A stretch of 64,000 nucleotides of DNA from Natribaculum luteum (GTDB taxonomy: Archaea > Halobacteriota > Halobacteria > Halobacteriales > Natrialbaceae). The DNA lies in assembly GCF_023008545.1 (NCBI RefSeq), contig NZ_CP095397.1:496001-560000 (forward strand), given 5' to 3'. The translations under genes were made by a program, and so were the position numbers. Below the pieces are notes generated by a model. The model made no database searches. It saw nothing but the letters and a program-made list of their open reading frames with translations, and was not told where the DNA came from. Within the stretch, counting starts at the first letter, position 1. Every line of letters begins with the position of its first letter. Of this stretch, positions 18,351 to 25,330 are shown piece after piece.

Positions 18351-21300
18351 TCAGTCGTCTCCGACTGCCTGCTCGTCGACCGCGTACTCCGCGGGTGCAC
18401 AGCCCAGCGACCGGTGTGGGCAGAACCGGCAGTGGTCACCCGGCGTCGTCTCCGCGAACGAAGGGTCGTCGACCGCCGCGAGCGTCTCGCGAACCGACTC
18501 CCACGCCGGGAGGTCGTCTCGAGCGAACAGGTCGACGTGGGGTCCGCTCTCGCCCACGTAGACGTAGCCAGCTCGGGCGACCGGCTCGTCGAACAGCGTC
18601 TCGCAGGCCCGCAGGTACAGCTGTAACTGGGTCGCCTCCTCGGGATCGATTCGATCGGCCGTCGTCTTGTAGTCGAGGACGACGAGGTCGCCCGCCGGCG
18701 TCCGACGGACCGAGTCGACGTAGCCAACGACGTCGCCGTCGATCCCGGGAACGTCCTCGAGCGCAAACGGCAGTTCGGCCGCGAGCGGTTCCCACTCGTG
18801 GACGGGCGCGTCGACCGACGACGCGGCCGCGGCGAAGTACCGGTCGACGCACTCGAGGACGGCCTCTCGGGCGTCGGTGAGATCGCGAGCAGTCAACTGG
18901 CGCACCGCGGCCTCGCGCCACTGCTCGTCGGTTCGATACTCGCGGTAGAACGCCTCCTCGGCGACGGCGTGGAAGACCCTGCCGATGGCGCGTGCGTTCG
19001 GCGTCGTTCCCCCTCTCGAGATCGGGTCGTCTATCGCGTCGACCACGTGATCGAGGTAGTGTTTGCGCGCACACTCCCCGTGGGTCTGCATCGCCGAGTA
19101 ACTGTGTCGCATCGCGACGGGGAGGTCGCCCGCGCTCGCAAGTGTCTCGACCGGAAACCGGACGGTGTCACTCGAGAGCGCGCTCGGGCACCGACCCGTC
19201 GGGATTCGAAGTTCGTCGACGTGGTCTGCCGCGTCGGCCGCCGGAAGCAAGGTTCCGTCGCGAAGCAGCCGTCCGAGTCGGTGGACCGTCTCGATCGCCT
19301 CGCGGGTCGCAAGCGGTTCGACGGTCCGTTCGCCGTAGTTTCCGTAGTAGGTGATCGTCCCCGGCGTGACGTCGGCCGCAACGGCGATCTCCTCGGTGAG
19401 GTCGACGACGGTCTCGGGATACCGTTCCCGGACCCGGTCGAAGCTCTCCGTGAGCGAAGCCCAGAGGTCCATCCGTTTGCCGGCGACGCACCACTCGATC
19501 TCGTCGGCCAGACACGCCTCCGCCGTCGACGTCGCGAGTTCGCCCTCGCCGCCCTCGTAATCGTAGCTCGACCCGAACAGGAACAGGTGATTTTCGGCAC
19601 GAGTGAGCGCGACGTGGAGTACCCGCCACTCCTCGCCGACCGTCTCGCGGGCGAGGTCAGCGAGCAGCGGGGAGTCGACGTCGTCGTCGATCGTCGCCTC
19701 GAGCAGCCGGTAGCGGGCACGCCCGGCGTAGTCGGTCTCGACACACCACTCCTCGTCCGAGAGGTAGGGGACGAGCACGGTATCGAACTGCAGCCCCTTC
19801 GCCTGGTGGACCGTCATCACGTCCACGCAGGCCTCCGAGCGCGTTCCGCGCCCGTATCCCGTCTCGCCCCCGGTCAGCGTCCGCTCGAGCGCGTCGACGA
19901 ACGACGTCGTGAGCGTCCCCAGTACCGTCCCCGGATCGTACGTCTCGGCGAAGCGTTCGACGCGCTCGAGTTCGGCGCGCTCCTCGCTCGTCAGGAACCA
20001 CGCGAGTCGCGTCACCTCGAGGAACCGGCGGACGAACTGCGCGAGCGGATAGACGTCGCGCATCGTCGTGAGCACCTCGAGGTGAGTGCGTGCGCGCTCG
20101 AGGCGCTCGGGATCGTCGAACGCGCTCGGATCCGCGGTCGCAAGCGCATCGTACAGCGATCCGTCGTGTGACTGGAGCCGTTCCAGGTCGGCCGCCGAGA
20201 GCCGGTACCGGTACGCCAGCACGCGTCGAAGGTGGGCGTCGGCGGTCGGGTCGACGACCACCCGGAGGTACGAGAGGACGGTCTGGGTGCCCGGTCGAAC
20301 CTCGCCGCGGGCCGACCCCGACACCTCGTAGGGGATCTGTCGATCCCGCAGTTCGTCGGCGATCGCCTGCGCGTGGCGGTTCGTCCGGACGATCACCGCC
20401 ACGTCGGCGAGCGACCGTCGAGGGGCGTCGTCGAACTCGCCGTTTAGCAGCCTCGAGACCGTCGTCGCGACCTGCTCTGGCGTCGAGAACTCGATCTCGT
20501 CGCCGTCGATCCGGCCGACGCGCACGGGCGGGTCGGCCGTCTCGTACTCACCGGGCGTTCGTCCGACTTCTCGAAGCGTCTTCGAGGACTGGGTGCCGTA
20601 CGTACAGTGGTTCGTCAGGTCCAGGATCTCCTGTTTCGAGCGGAAGTTGAGCTCGAGTTCGATCGCCTCGTGGTCGTCGTAGGTCACAGCCAGCCGATCG
20701 AGCCCCTCGCGGTCGGTGCCGCGCCAGCCGTAGATGGCCTGGTCTTTGTCGCCGATCGCGAACAGGTCCGGTCGATCCTCGCCCGCAGTCAACTGCGTGA
20801 TGAGCCGAAACTGCGTCCCGTCGGTGTCCTGGAACTCGTCGCAGTACACCTGCGCCCACCGGTTCGTGATCTCGTCGGCGACGCTCTCGTTGGCCGTCGC
20901 TCCCTCGTTTCCGGCTCGGTCTGGCCCGCCGTCGTCCTCGAGTAACTGCGTCGCCGTCCGAACGAGTTCGTCGAAGTCGACGATCCGCTCGCGTTCGAGG
21001 TACGCCCGGTAGTCGGCGTAGACCTCGGTGTAGTGACGCGCCAGCCGCAGGAACTCGAGGTAGTGTTTGAGCCGTCCGAACGGCGTCTGCTCGATCGTCG
21101 ACGTGGCGTTGCGCCGGATCTCGTTTCCGAACAGCGCCCGCGGCAGGTGTTTCGTCGTCGGCTCGTCGAGCGACAGCGCCTCGAGCGTGTTCGTCACGCA
21201 CGTCTGGAGGACGCCGAGGTACCGCCGAACGTCCGAGACGACCGCGTCGTCGTGAAACTCGTCGGGTGCCTCGGCGATCTTCTCCCGGCAGTAGGTCAGC

Positions 21301-22031
21301 AGCTTGCCGTAGTCGACCAGCGACTCGCGGGCCTCATCGAGGTGGTCTTCGCGGTTGAAGTACCGCAGCGCCTCGTTGTCGAACGACAGGTTCTCGCTGG
21401 CTTCGCGCTCGAGCCAGAGGACGAACTCGCCGAGAACCTCGAGCGTGCGAACGTCGGGAAGACGATCTGCGAGCGTCTCGGGATCGACGTCTTCCTGGCT
21501 CATCTCCCGGATGAACCGATCGAGCGAGTCGGCGAGGTCGGCCGCGGAGCCGTCGCCGCGGGTCGACGCGTCGGCGAACTCGTAGTCGCCGTCCTCGAGG
21601 AGCTGTCGAACGATCCGGCGACGGCCACGCTCGGTGACGACGTCGAACTCGGGAGAGAAGCCGAGGTAGTAGGCGTACTCGCGGACGAGGTGGTGACACA
21701 GCGAGTGGTAGGTGTAGACGTCGATCGCAGCGGCGTCCTCTGGACCGAGCCGCTCGGTGACCGCCTCGCGGATACTCGCCGCGGCCTCGTTGGCAAACGT
21801 CAGGACGAGGACGTCCTCGGGTGCGACCTCGCCGCGCTCGATGGCGCGTTCGATCCGCATGAGCATCGTCGTCGTCTTGCCGGTGCCGGCTCCGGCGTCG
21901 ACCGAGGTACACGCCGCCCGGCTCTCGAGGGCCGCTCGCTGGTTCCCCTTCGGTCCGTCAGGATGCTCGTTGGTCTGCCCGCTCTCGGCGTCCCCGTCGA
22001 CGCCGTCGTCCGTCGCGTCCGCGTCACCCAT
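18351..22031 (-). CDS. UvrD/AddA-like helicase fused to iron-sulfur PD-(D/E)XK nuclease
   Basis: A 1226-residue superfamily 1 helicase. It has a Q motif (GNQ), Walker A GAGTGKTT at 47-54, Walker B DEFQDT at 398-403, motif III GDKDQAIYGWRG near 427, the VHQAKGLQFD motif near 740, and motif VI VALTRAENHLFLF. The C-terminal third is a RecB-family nuclease with GYVDSV and LVVLDYKTT carrying the catalytic Asp and Asp-x-Lys. It is bracketed by cysteines (ECARK early, CRFCPHRSLGC at the end) placed as in the AddB/Cas4 Fe-S staple. This is the AddA/RecB-like motor of the three-gene operon; its ATG overlaps the preceding gene by 8 bases (ATGGGTGA). Confidence 0.88.
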   Translation of the reverse strand: MGDADATDDGVDGDAESGQTNEHPDGPKGNQRAALESRAACTSVDAGAGTGKTTTMLMRIERAIERGEVAPEDVLVLTFANEAAASIREAVTERLGPEDAAAIDVYTYHSLCHHLVREYAYYLGFSPEFDVVTERGRRRIVRQLLEDGDYEFADASTRGDGSAADLADSLDRFIREMSQEDVDPETLADRLPDVRTLEVLGEFVLWLEREASENLSFDNEALRYFNREDHLDEARESLVDYGKLLTYCREKIAEAPDEFHDDAVVSDVRRYLGVLQTCVTNTLEALSLDEPTTKHLPRALFGNEIRRNATSTIEQTPFGRLKHYLEFLRLARHYTEVYADYRAYLERERIVDFDELVRTATQLLEDDGGPDRAGNEGATANESVADEITNRWAQVYCDEFQDTDGTQFRLITQLTAGEDRPDLFAIGDKDQAIYGWRGTDREGLDRLAVTYDDHEAIELELNFRSKQEILDLTNHCTYGTQSSKTLREVGRTPGEYETADPPVRVGRIDGDEIEFSTPEQVATTVSRLLNGEFDDAPRRSLADVAVIVRTNRHAQAIADELRDRQIPYEVSGSARGEVRPGTQTVLSYLRVVVDPTADAHLRRVLAYRYRLSAADLERLQSHDGSLYDALATADPSAFDDPERLERARTHLEVLTTMRDVYPLAQFVRRFLEVTRLAWFLTSEERAELERVERFAETYDPGTVLGTLTTSFVDALERTLTGGETGYGRGTRSEACVDVMTVHQAKGLQFDTVLVPYLSDEEWCVETDYAGRARYRLLEATIDDDVDSPLLADLARETVGEEWRVLHVALTRAENHLFLFGSSYDYEGGEGELATSTAEACLADEIEWCVAGKRMDLWASLTESFDRVRERYPETVVDLTEEIAVAADVTPGTITYYGNYGERTVEPLATREAIETVHRLGRLLRDGTLLPAADAADHVDELRIPTGRCPSALSSDTVRFPVETLASAGDLPVAMRHSYSAMQTHGECARKHYLDHVVDAIDDPISRGGTTPNARAIGRVFHAVAEEAFYREYRTDEQWREAAVRQLTARDLTDAREAVLECVDRYFAAAASSVDAPVHEWEPLAAELPFALEDVPGIDGDVVGYVDSVRRTPAGDLVVLDYKTTADRIDPEEATQLQLYLRACETLFDEPVARAGYVYVGESGPHVDLFARDDLPAWESVRETLAAVDDPSFAETTPGDHCRFCPHRSLGCAPAEYAVDEQAVGDD

Positions 22032-23028
22032 CGAATCGCACCTCCGTGGCCATGTACTCCCCACAGCAGACGGCGTACCCGCAGTCCGGACAGGACCGGT
22101 CGACGATCCGGTCCCACGCCGACGTCGGATCGAACGCACCCGACAGCACGTTCTCGAGCGTCTCGCCCAGTCGGGTCTCGACGGTCCGGTTGCGGTGTTC
22201 GTGGGTCATCCCGAACGTGTGGTGGTCGAGGAAGACGTCCGTCAGGTCGACCGTCTCGAGGCTCGCCTCGACGGTCTCTCGAACCCAGTTGACCGAGGCG
22301 CTCGAGCGCTCTACCAGCGGAACCTGTACGTACCGACACGTCCGATTCCCGAGCTCGAGTCGGTCCCGGAGATCGCGCAACCCCTCGAGGACGACGGCCG
22401 TCTCGAACAGCGCGCCGACGGCGTCCGGTTCGAACCGGTCGTCGTCGGGATCGAAGTGATCCGTAAAGAGCGCGGCGACGTCGCCCTCCCACGCCGACCG
22501 ATATCGGAGCAGTCCGAGCGGGGCGAGCGTCGGGACGAACCGGACGCCCGTCAGCGAGCTTCCGTCGGTGGTGACGTAGTCGACGACCGACTCGACCTCG
22601 ACTCCCGTGCCGTCGGGGAGCAGAATCGTCGCCGACAGCGGGAGTTCCGGTCCCAGCAGCTCCTCGTCGGTTTCCCGGCGCAGTTTCGTCACGCCGCGAA
22701 CGTGCTCGACGCCGACGTCCGCGACGTACGCGCGAACGGCGGCCTCGAGTCGCTGGCGCTCGTGGCGGCGCTGGGCCAGCGAGTGGAACCGCTCGCCGTG
22801 GCTGGTCCACAGTTCCGTGAGCCGATCGATGACGGCCGCTTCGAGGTCGTCGCGGTCGGTTCGCCCGGTTCGCAACGCGTCACAGATCGCCGTTCGTAGC
22901 AACTCGAGGCGTCGCGTCTCCGGCGGGTCGTCGTCCTCGCTCTCGAGGCCGTGCACGTGAGCGAACTCGTACCGGCGCGGACAGTGGAGATACGTTTGCA
23001 CCCCCTCGATCGAGACCCGCTCAGTCAC
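22024..23028 (-). CDS. Cas4/Dna2-like Fe-S protein with degenerate nuclease site
   Basis: A 334-residue protein, second gene of the helicase-nuclease operon. It opens with a YLHCPRRYEFAHVHG segment matching the first-cysteine motif of Cas4/AddB-type nucleases and ends with CPDCGYAVCCGEY, supplying further cysteines for an iron-sulfur cluster. In between, the expected nuclease core (VEVESVVDYV, then a long insertion, GVRFVP) keeps an Asp but lacks the D/E-x-K pair, so catalysis may be lost. It starts with GTG, overlapping the preceding gene as GTGACTGA and the next gene by 8 bases. A structural subunit or DNA-end sensor is the likeliest role; the product name is inferred. Confidence 0.68.
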   Translation of the reverse strand: MTERVSIEGVQTYLHCPRRYEFAHVHGLESEDDDPPETRRLELLRTAICDALRTGRTDRDDLEAAVIDRLTELWTSHGERFHSLAQRRHERQRLEAAVRAYVADVGVEHVRGVTKLRRETDEELLGPELPLSATILLPDGTGVEVESVVDYVTTDGSSLTGVRFVPTLAPLGLLRYRSAWEGDVAALFTDHFDPDDDRFEPDAVGALFETAVVLEGLRDLRDRLELGNRTCRYVQVPLVERSSASVNWVRETVEASLETVDLTDVFLDHHTFGMTHEHRNRTVETRLGETLENVLSGAFDPTSAWDRIVDRSCPDCGYAVCCGEYMATEVRFDG

Positions 23029-25156
23029 GTCGCACCACCTCGCCGGCGGCGAACTCGAACTGCGAGCGGACGGCCGTCGCGAGTTCCTCGTCGACGTTCC
23101 CCTCGAGGACGACGGCGATCTCCTCGAACAGCGCCTCGGTCTCGGCGAGGTCCGCCTCACCGCCGGTGCTCGCCTCCCGGAGCACTCGCTCGAGTTCCCC
23201 TCGTGGCTCTGCGAGCAGTTCCTCGAGCGCGCTGGTGCGCCCGTAAACTGCCGCCTCCCGGGCACGTGCGTCGACGTCCTCGAGGGTGACGTCGGGATGG
23301 TCTGCGAGTAGTTTCACGTACCGCGACTCCTCTCGCGATCGACCGAGGCCGCCTGACTCACGTTCGTACGAACAGAGGTACAGCTGCGAGTGTGCCGCCC
23401 GCGCGCCCAGTGCGAGCGCCCGTCTGGCCCGCTGGGCGTGGTAGGCCTCGAACGGGTTCCCGACCGACGCGGGCGACGAGACGGGAGCGAACGTGCGTGC
23501 CACGTCGGCTGGCGACGGACCGGTGACGGCCGGGTAGTTCGGCATCGACTCGAGCCACGGCGTCGGGAACAGGTTTGTGAGGTGCTGTCGGCCGGGATAG
23601 CGGTCGTCGAGCAGGTCGAGCAGGAAGACCGCCTCGCGACCATCGTACTTGAGATCAGCGACGGGACAGACCGTCACACCGCCCGTCTCTGGTCGCGTCT
23701 CGATGTCGTGGACGTACGGCGCGTCGTACTCGATCGTCCGGCGAAGCATCCGGCGCAACCCCGCCCAGTCGGGAGAGACGACGTCGGTCTCCTCGACGAA
23801 CCGGGCGATCTCGAGGACGCGACGGACGCTCTCGTACTGTTCTCGGGCGTCGGCCCACGTCTCGCTCTCGGCGATCCGCCGTTTCAGGTCGGTGCGAACG
23901 AGCCAGCGCTCGAGCGACCGGGCGAGACTCGAGTCGGTACACTCCTCGACGAGGTCGGGAGCGAAGTCGGGGACGCGAGCGGCCAGTCGCTCGCGGGCAC
24001 GCTCCCGTTCGTGACCGCAGTTGTACGCGACGAACGCGTAGAGTTCGTTGACCGCGGGGTCCTGGGCGAGCGAGTGCGTGCCGACCGTCGCCGTTGGAAC
24101 CCCCGCGTCCCGAAGGCGTTCTCGCGTCTCGGGGACCCGTTCGATCGTCGGGACGGCGACCGCCACGTCGTCGTAGCGCCACTCGTCGTGGCGATCGCAG
24201 AGGGTCTGTATCTCCGTGGCGACCTGCCGGTCCTGCTCGCGAGCCGTTCCGGCCCGTATTCGCCGCACACTCGCGGGCTCGCCGCTCGACTCGTCCGTCG
24301 CGAGGAGGTCGACGATCGTCCCGTGATCGGCGTTCGCCCGCGTGGTCGGCGCTGCCGGCGGCTCGATCGTCTCGATCGCGAGTCCGTCTGCGAGATCCTC
24401 GAGGTTGCCTGGTTCGACCCGCGTGCGCTCGACGCTCGCGTGGCGCTCGCCGAGGCAAACGAGCGCTGCGTCGTCCGTGAGGGCGGCGAGGTACCGTCGG
24501 TCGAGTCGCCGACACTCCTCGAACTCGAGGACGAGCACCGCGTCGAACGACGAACTGACGCGGCTTCGCAGACCGTCGCGGTCGTCCTCGAGGAGGTCGA
24601 CCGCCCGCGGGATCACGTCCGCCCGCTCGACGAACCCGCGAGCGCGCAGTTCCTCGTGGAACCGGTCGTTCATCGCGTACAGGAAGTCGAGACACTCGTG
24701 GGGCTCCTCGAGGTCGTCGTGGCGAAGTCCCTGCCGCGTCGCCGCGAGGAGCAACTGTCCGACGTCGCGGGTGAAGCTGTCGTGCTGGCGGGCGCGCTCG
24801 AGGTACGCCGGCACGTCGCGTTTCGCGCCGTCGATCACCATCGAGACGAGTTCGATCCGCTCTTCGTAGGCGAGTCGATCGAGCGTCGGATCGTACTCCT
24901 CGAGGACCTTCGAGGCGTGTTCCGGCAGCGACTCGACTCGGGGACTGCGCGGCGTGGCGTTCGTCGCGTCGGCGCTCGTGAGCGCCTCGCGGACGCGCTC
25001 GACCCCCGCGGGCTGGCGCTTGAGGACGAGGACGTTTCCTGGCCCGTACTCGTCGGCGAGGGCGGCGTACTTCGCTGTGACGACCTCGAGGACGTCGCTG
25101 TGAGGCGACGGGAGGACCTTCAGGACGCCGTCGAGATCGGTGGTGGGCGAAGACAT
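23021..25156 (-). CDS. AddB/RecC-like inactive helicase-fold subunit
   Basis: A 711-residue protein heading the helicase-nuclease operon. Its layout follows UvrD/AddB helicases without the ATP site. The N-terminal segment NVLVLKRQPAGVERVREAL occupies the P-loop place but has no GxGKT. A DAVLVLEFEECRRLDRRYLAAL stretch (near 208) stands where Walker B would be. VTVCPVADLKYDGREAVFLLDLLDDRYPG (near 510) and YLCSYERESGGLGRSRE (near 630) match the later helicase motifs of RecC/AddB proteins. No nuclease domain or Fe-S cysteines are seen at its C-terminus; the next gene seems to supply that part. Haloarchaea-specific divergence makes the family call moderate. Confidence 0.65.
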   Translation of the reverse strand: MSSPTTDLDGVLKVLPSPHSDVLEVVTAKYAALADEYGPGNVLVLKRQPAGVERVREALTSADATNATPRSPRVESLPEHASKVLEEYDPTLDRLAYEERIELVSMVIDGAKRDVPAYLERARQHDSFTRDVGQLLLAATRQGLRHDDLEEPHECLDFLYAMNDRFHEELRARGFVERADVIPRAVDLLEDDRDGLRSRVSSSFDAVLVLEFEECRRLDRRYLAALTDDAALVCLGERHASVERTRVEPGNLEDLADGLAIETIEPPAAPTTRANADHGTIVDLLATDESSGEPASVRRIRAGTAREQDRQVATEIQTLCDRHDEWRYDDVAVAVPTIERVPETRERLRDAGVPTATVGTHSLAQDPAVNELYAFVAYNCGHERERARERLAARVPDFAPDLVEECTDSSLARSLERWLVRTDLKRRIAESETWADAREQYESVRRVLEIARFVEETDVVSPDWAGLRRMLRRTIEYDAPYVHDIETRPETGGVTVCPVADLKYDGREAVFLLDLLDDRYPGRQHLTNLFPTPWLESMPNYPAVTGPSPADVARTFAPVSSPASVGNPFEAYHAQRARRALALGARAAHSQLYLCSYERESGGLGRSREESRYVKLLADHPDVTLEDVDARAREAAVYGRTSALEELLAEPRGELERVLREASTGGEADLAETEALFEEIAVVLEGNVDEELATAVRSQFEFAAGEVVRRD

Positions 25157-25330
25157 CAGTCGGTCGGTCTGTCACGGAGTAGTGACTCTCTCGTATTTAA
25201 ACTCTCGTCCGGCGTCACACTCGATATCGAGACCCTGTCGTATCGGGTCGAGGATGGCTCGGAACTCGAGCGAGTTCGACGGGTTCGCCGAGACGAATCC
25301 TTAATACGTTGCACTGTGACACGTTCGCAC

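Follow-up and report, generated by a model that had tools for sequence, protein, structure and literature searches.

The window analysed here, a 64,000-nucleotide stretch of the Natribaculum luteum genome (NZ_CP095397.1, positions 496,001 to 560,000; coordinates below are those of the window), carries three genes on the minus strand that are predicted to encode a DNA end-processing enzyme of the AddAB/RecBCD kind. The first, termed g1 (23021..25156), starts with ATG and codes for an AddB/RecC-like protein of 711 amino acids (aa) that has the superfamily 1 (SF1, UvrD) fold without Walker A. The second, g2 (22024..23028), starts with GTG and codes for a 334-aa protein, an AddB-type nuclease domain standing as a protein of its own with its catalytic site lost. 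The third, g3 (18351..22031), starts with ATG and codes for 1226 aa, with a UvrD-type motor and a C-terminal iron-sulphur (Fe-S) PD-(D/E)XK nuclease. Read from the sequence, the stop of g1 overlaps the start of g2 by 8 bp (GTGACTGA, 23021..23028, minus strand), and the stop of g2 overlaps the start of g3 by another 8 bp (ATGGGTGA, 22024..22031, minus strand). The first-pass annotation, made from the window alone, had described a three-gene set with an 8-base overlap at each junction, and it was exact for both.

The three genes are conserved together. In 110 of 111 homologous loci g1, g2 and g3 were found side by side and in the same order, and L093, the only locus without a complete trio, ends at a contig edge; the survey of co-occurrence that had been proposed as a check thus came out in favour of a conserved set. 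The overlaps are conserved as well. Among 110 loci the g1/g2 overlap was 8 bp in 64, 4 bp in 45 and 11 bp in one, and the g2/g3 overlap was 8 bp in 63, 4 bp in 39, of another length in 7 and unresolved in one, so that an 8- or 4-bp overlap was present at 109/110 and 102/110 loci, respectively. These counts carry a bias to short overlaps, since the script picked the in-frame start closest to a 6-bp overlap; judged by the counts, an in-frame start at such a position in nearly all loci is nevertheless far beyond chance. At every complete locus g1 and g2 are two chains, and no fused g1-g2 gene was seen in haloarchaea. About 40 bp before the start codon of g1, the element TTTAAATA (25194..25201, minus strand), picked out by eye, might be a TATA box.

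The motor subunit was the most readily identified. G3 matched the Pfam families UvrD-helicase (3.9e-54), UvrD_C (1.2e-26) and PDDEXK_1 (3e-23), all above the cut-offs, and in the Protein Data Bank (PDB) it matched AdnB (1.6e-25). The motor residues (Walker A K52, DE398-399, Q431, R464 and R811), the nuclease residues (D1106, D1120, K1122, Q1135 and Y1139) and four Fe-S cysteines (C987, C1201, C1204 and C1211) could all be assigned, and these motifs were invariant in 108-111 of the 111 sequences, the remainder being gaps. G3 is therefore predicted to hold the complete residue set of an SF1A (UvrD-type, 3'-5') motor and of a PD-(D/E)XK nuclease, as the proposal of a UvrD helicase with a C-terminal Fe-S nuclease had it.

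With g1, direct profile matches were weak (UvrD_C 0.011 in Pfam and TIGR01075 0.0014 in NCBIfam). When a profile built from 32 g1 sequences was compared with PDB sequences, AddB was the best match (2.9e-7), followed by UvrD1 (1.2e-5). The AlphaFold (AF2) models of g1 and g2 were of single chains, and that of g1 had a predicted local distance difference test score (pLDDT) of 82. In Foldseek the g1 model matched UvrD first by E-value (4e-23, against 5e-22 for AddB), and AddB gave the highest query-normalised TM-score (0.62-0.64). Walker A is missing from the helicase position of all 111 g1 sequences; the lone pattern of this type is a stray near the C-terminus of the L046 protein. Dozens of columns of the family alignment are invariant. 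The first protein had been called an inactive helicase-fold protein, and both the fold matches and the lost Walker A bear this out.

G2 matched Pfam PDDEXK_1 at 4.9e-8. Since a g2 profile had no meaningful match among PDB sequences, the folds were compared: the AF2 model (pLDDT 87) matched AddB best in Foldseek (1.4e-5), and then AdnA. The putative Fe-S ligands of the window protein are C16, C313, C316 and C322. At the catalytic site D150 is kept, and the D/E, K, Q and Y positions are occupied by R163, V165, E209 and V213. The first-pass description of g2 as a Cas4-like Fe-S protein thus holds for the fold and the four cysteines and fails for the catalytic residues, which are missing in the window, and no Cas4 model of NCBIfam matched. 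The same loss, with retention of the first D, was found in 69 sequences (the window and 68 relatives), whereas 42 sequences of a sister clade have the full set of D, D/E, K, Q and Y. The four cysteines are retained in all 69 dead-site sequences and in 110/111 overall. Judged from these residues, g2 is not a second nuclease in the clade of the window.

On a g1 tree (99 rows, quick method, root not formally tested) the active and dead states of g2 are parted by a single fully supported branch, and the state changes once on the tree, against about 30 times for shuffled labels. A dead-g2 locus, L032, has a long branch near the root. Because the related AddB of methanogens, described below, has an intact site, the dead state would most simply be derived and have arisen once. 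The loss of the g2 site is clearly an evolutionary switch, one not visible to the earlier reader of the window alone. The g2 of L062 (Halorussus ruber) has DYR in place of DYK, with the acidic residue retained and K changed to R, and may be an intermediate on the way to the dead site.

Weak g1 matches were also obtained in methanogens of the same phylum. These are open reading frames 1,026-1,141 aa long that carry PDDEXK_1 at the C-terminus and lie beside an AddA-like gene. At loci L145-L149 and L152 AddB and AddA are such neighbours and the AddB nuclease is intact; no paper on this pair was found in the open-licence literature. In profile comparisons g1 aligned to columns 12-573 of the methanogen AddB (E 7e-19), g2 to columns 726-1045 (E 2e-7), and g3 to the methanogen AddA over most of its length (E 3e-70). 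Since g1 and g2 follow one another along AddB in these alignments, and their summed length (711 + 334 = 1,045 aa) falls within the single-chain methanogen range, the alignments indicate that together they correspond to one AddB chain. That the AddB function is shared between two polypeptides had been suggested from the window; this collinear mapping upholds it as an arrangement, with descent from AddB less certain.

We propose, with a probability of about 0.72, that the trio forms a helicase-nuclease of a split AddAB type, with three subunits, and acts on the ends of double-stranded DNA. In the clade of the window it would most likely be an ATP-dependent, RecBCD-like enzyme with one working nuclease. 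We infer that g1, g2 and g3 form one complex. G3 would move along the 3'-ended strand and unwind the duplex, and the strands would run over g1, which, like the inactive helicase domains in AddB and RecC that read Chi (PMC4824097), would serve as a scaffold and might also scan for a Chi-like signal. G2, stabilised by its Fe-S cluster, would keep the fork and guide the 5' strand without cleavage, and cutting would be left to the single nuclease of g3. Because one nuclease would do the cutting, the enzyme would be built functionally like RecBCD, which has one, and not like AddAB, which has two. In Natrialbaceae its role would most likely be chromosomal DNA repair and recombination, beside the usual archaeal end-processing enzymes.

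Several observations weigh against this proposal. The column of the AddB ionic-latch Glu129 is Ala138 in the window g1; across the family it is E in 41/69 and D in 9/69 sequences of the window's clade and T in 39/42 of the sister clade. The column of the Chi-pocket Phe68 is Leu77. The assignment of both columns rests on a weak g1-AddB alignment; as aligned, the latch and pocket residues are not conserved, and Chi control of the window's enzyme, though possible, is not supported. Of the two AddAB nucleases, that of AddA cleaves the 3'-ended strand and that of AddB the 5'-ended one (PMC4824097). If the g3 nuclease, by analogy with AddA, cuts only the 3' strand, the product would not be recombinogenic. 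Furthermore, g1 is absent from 10 of 74 Natrialbaceae genomes, and hence is not essential. The two remaining points concern kinship: the Fe-S cysteines of g3 are common to UvrD-Cas4 fusions and are not found in the methanogen AddA, and the g2 profile of the active clade is closer to the UvrD-Cas4 nuclease (8e-10) than to the AddB nuclease (1e-4).

The last two points are those that would be expected if g1 and g2 were a degenerate, split copy of a duplicated UvrD-Cas4-type enzyme that forms a heteromer with g3, a history that may also be seen in AdnA/AdnB; the likeness to AddB would then be convergent. G1 also matched UvrD-Cas4 (2.5e-11) and g3 (7.5e-10), and g3 matched the UvrD-Cas4 profile (9e-67) about as well as AddA. 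However, this profile was made from 3 sequences only, and its E-values do not compare with the others on equal terms. The best profile match of g1 is the methanogen AddB, and in the PDB it is the bacterial AddB. We hold a UvrD-Cas4 origin to be a serious alternative, though a less probable one than the split AddAB-type enzyme.

The distribution of the trio bears on its role. Profile matches to g1 were obtained in 107 of 292 haloarchaeal genomes, namely in 64/74 of Natrialbaceae and in 43/218 of the others, where some are fragments. The closest named relative of the window is Natribaculum breve (Natrialbaceae; locus L134, NZ_CP095390.1), and the genome of the window has no second g1 copy. In a scan of 84,980 species (one genome each) all 80 loci listed were from Halobacteria; since the scan relies on short conserved patterns, from which very distant relatives could escape, the split three-subunit arrangement is best described as found here only in Halobacteria. 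No g1 relative was found among viral contigs, and a virus-borne origin was rejected on this ground.

The dead-g2 form lies mostly at one fixed chromosomal place in Natrialbaceae, with a CBS-domain gene upstream at 46/67 loci and, downstream, a NUDIX gene at 30/66, proS at 26/66 and an oxidoreductase gene at 25-30 of 66. Copies with active g2, together with other divergent ones, have a scattered distribution that includes 16 plasmid records. The neighbours of active g2 include BREX-5 pglZ, type III restriction-like Mod/Res pairs, a Piwi-domain protein, PLD-family proteins and AAA/DUF4143 ATPases. Judged by this context, a housekeeping role is the more likely one for the clade of the window, and a mobile or defensive one for its sister.

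Three further observations were made on plasmids. Active-g2 trios often lie in a recurrent cassette (L155, L156 and L158-L162) with a divergent AAA_14/DUF4143 ATPase gene (568 aa), a convergent gene for a protein of 375 aa with a resemblance, judged by eye, to DnaQ-type exonucleases, and a gene for a PLD/TDP-like protein of ~715 aa; the cassette could represent a larger system for defence or plasmid competition. In Natrinema zhouii (L165:3221-14345) and Haloplanus rubicundus (L157:7942-15534) the trio's neighbours are SbcD/SbcC-like genes or a gene for a metallophosphoesterase, as though an Mre11-Rad50-like pair travelled with it. Finally, Halorubrum lacusprofundi pHLAC01 (L166:6019-6954) has a 311-aa remnant of g1, without g2 or g3, beside an AAA ATPase gene.

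The setting of the sister clade invites the explanation that the trio is a defence machine that degrades the ends of incoming viral or plasmid DNA, with repair secondary or absent. In that clade the intact-g2 copies lie amid defence genes on plasmids, PLD or AAA genes are near 16-19 of 42 loci, and the UvrD-Cas4 relatives are tied to defence (PMC5704561). Near the loci of the window's clade, however, PLD or AAA genes were found in 0/68 cases; this clade has housekeeping neighbours and is present in most Natrialbaceae, and some of the plasmid copies lie amid metabolic or plasmid-maintenance genes. A search of PADLOC-DB 2.0.0 gave weak GajB/RTasHel matches to g1 (best 5e-5), none to g2 and generic UvrD matches to g3; with no specific match for the trio, a known defence system was rejected. 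A primary role in defence is thus unlikely for the window, and repair of DNA ends by a split AddAB-type enzyme is preferred. A further explanation, in which g3 acts by itself as an enzyme of the UvrD-Cas4 type and g1 and g2 are relics in decay, is very improbable and, by sequence conservation, largely refuted: catalytic sites are indeed lost in both, and single-chain UvrD-Cas4 proteins exist alone (PMC5704561; loci L142-L144), but g1 and g2 are intact open reading frames never missing from a complete locus, with the invariant g1 columns and all Fe-S ligands retained, and decay would bring frameshifts and losses, of which the sole case seen, the H. lacusprofundi plasmid, lost g2 and g3 too.

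As to the other enzymes that act at DNA ends, NurA (PF09376) was found in the genome of the window (G000:C1:2010494-2011429), with a DUF87 ATPase gene ~4 kb away, and in 288/292 haloarchaeal genomes. The same family was matched in the Haloferax volcanii control, an organism from which a review reports HerA and NurA to be absent (PMC7776575). Since NurA is nearly universal in haloarchaea, the trio adds to it, and the candidate role of a HerA-NurA replacement was rejected. A search for the Rad50 zinc hook had no match in the genome of the window, nor in the H. volcanii control, and hence carries no information on Rad50. End resection in haloarchaea is credited to Mre11-Rad50, and deletion of Mre11-Rad50 in H. 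volcanii raises recombination at breaks (PMC7776575); other enzymes must therefore resect. For the lineages in which it occurs, a conserved enzyme of the split AddAB type would be a concrete candidate for this task. No published description of the trio, or of a haloarchaeal machine of the AddAB/RecBCD type, was found in the open-licence literature, and two reviews of archaeal break repair (PMC7776575, PMC8708640) do not mention such an enzyme. The trio occurs naturally in two otherwise equivalent versions, with a single working nuclease or with two, and their comparison would be a direct test of the purpose of the second nuclease. A bolder interpretation, which we put forward only tentatively and consider doubtful, is that an archaeal lineage independently made an AddAB-type two-nuclease enzyme into a RecBCD-like one-nuclease enzyme, through a split of the second subunit and the silencing of the nuclease it carried. 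It would then be a dedicated resection and recombination enzyme, possibly with a Chi-like sequence of its own, and would account for resection independent of Mre11-Rad50 in the carrier lineages. Bacteria seem to have made the same step, loss of the second nuclease, between AddB and RecC.

Among known systems, HerA-NurA and Mre11-Rad50 share with the trio archaeal DNA-end processing, but they are unrelated protein families. Cas4 is set apart from g2, which has neither the catalytic PD-(D/E)XK residues nor a match to a Cas4 model. The UvrD-Cas4 fusions (PMC5704561) have the layout of g3, a UvrD motor fused to a C-terminal Fe-S PD-(D/E)XK domain, but are described as stand-alone proteins or with restriction genes, and not with g1 or g2. 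AdnAB of mycobacteria also joins a UvrD-type motor to a nuclease, with g3 matching AdnB, and g2 and g1 matching AdnA by fold; however, it consists of two chains, each with a motor fold and a nuclease, whereas the trio splits the AdnA counterpart into g1 and g2. The methanogen AddB-AddA pair comes from the same phylum and has adjacent genes in the same order, with AddB collinear with g1 plus g2; its AddB is unsplit with an intact nuclease site, and its AddA is without the Fe-S cysteines.

AddAB (RexAB) of Bacillus and others resembles the trio in having adjacent genes for an SF1 motor and nuclease subunit and for a non-motor partner with an SF1 fold and an Fe-S PD-(D/E)XK domain. It differs in that AddB is one chain and its counterpart in the trio two polypeptides, in that the nuclease of AddB type has lost its catalytic site in the clade of the window (intact in the 42 sister sequences), in the Fe-S cysteines of the trio's motor-subunit nuclease, and in the ionic-latch Glu and Chi-pocket Phe, which are not conserved in g1. 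RecBCD has, like the trio, three polypeptides, a dead helicase-fold subunit (RecC) and, when compared by residue counts with the window's clade only, a single working nuclease in the motor subunit. The trio has no RecD motor, its third polypeptide being instead the split Fe-S nuclease-fold domain; no RecD was found among the trio or its conserved neighbours, the rest of the genome not having been searched for it. The trio therefore cannot be filed as AddAB, because it has no single-chain AddB with an active nuclease, nor as RecBCD, because no RecD was seen among the conserved genes. It is a real, conserved variant of the AddAB/RecBCD kind, and one that most likely works like those enzymes.

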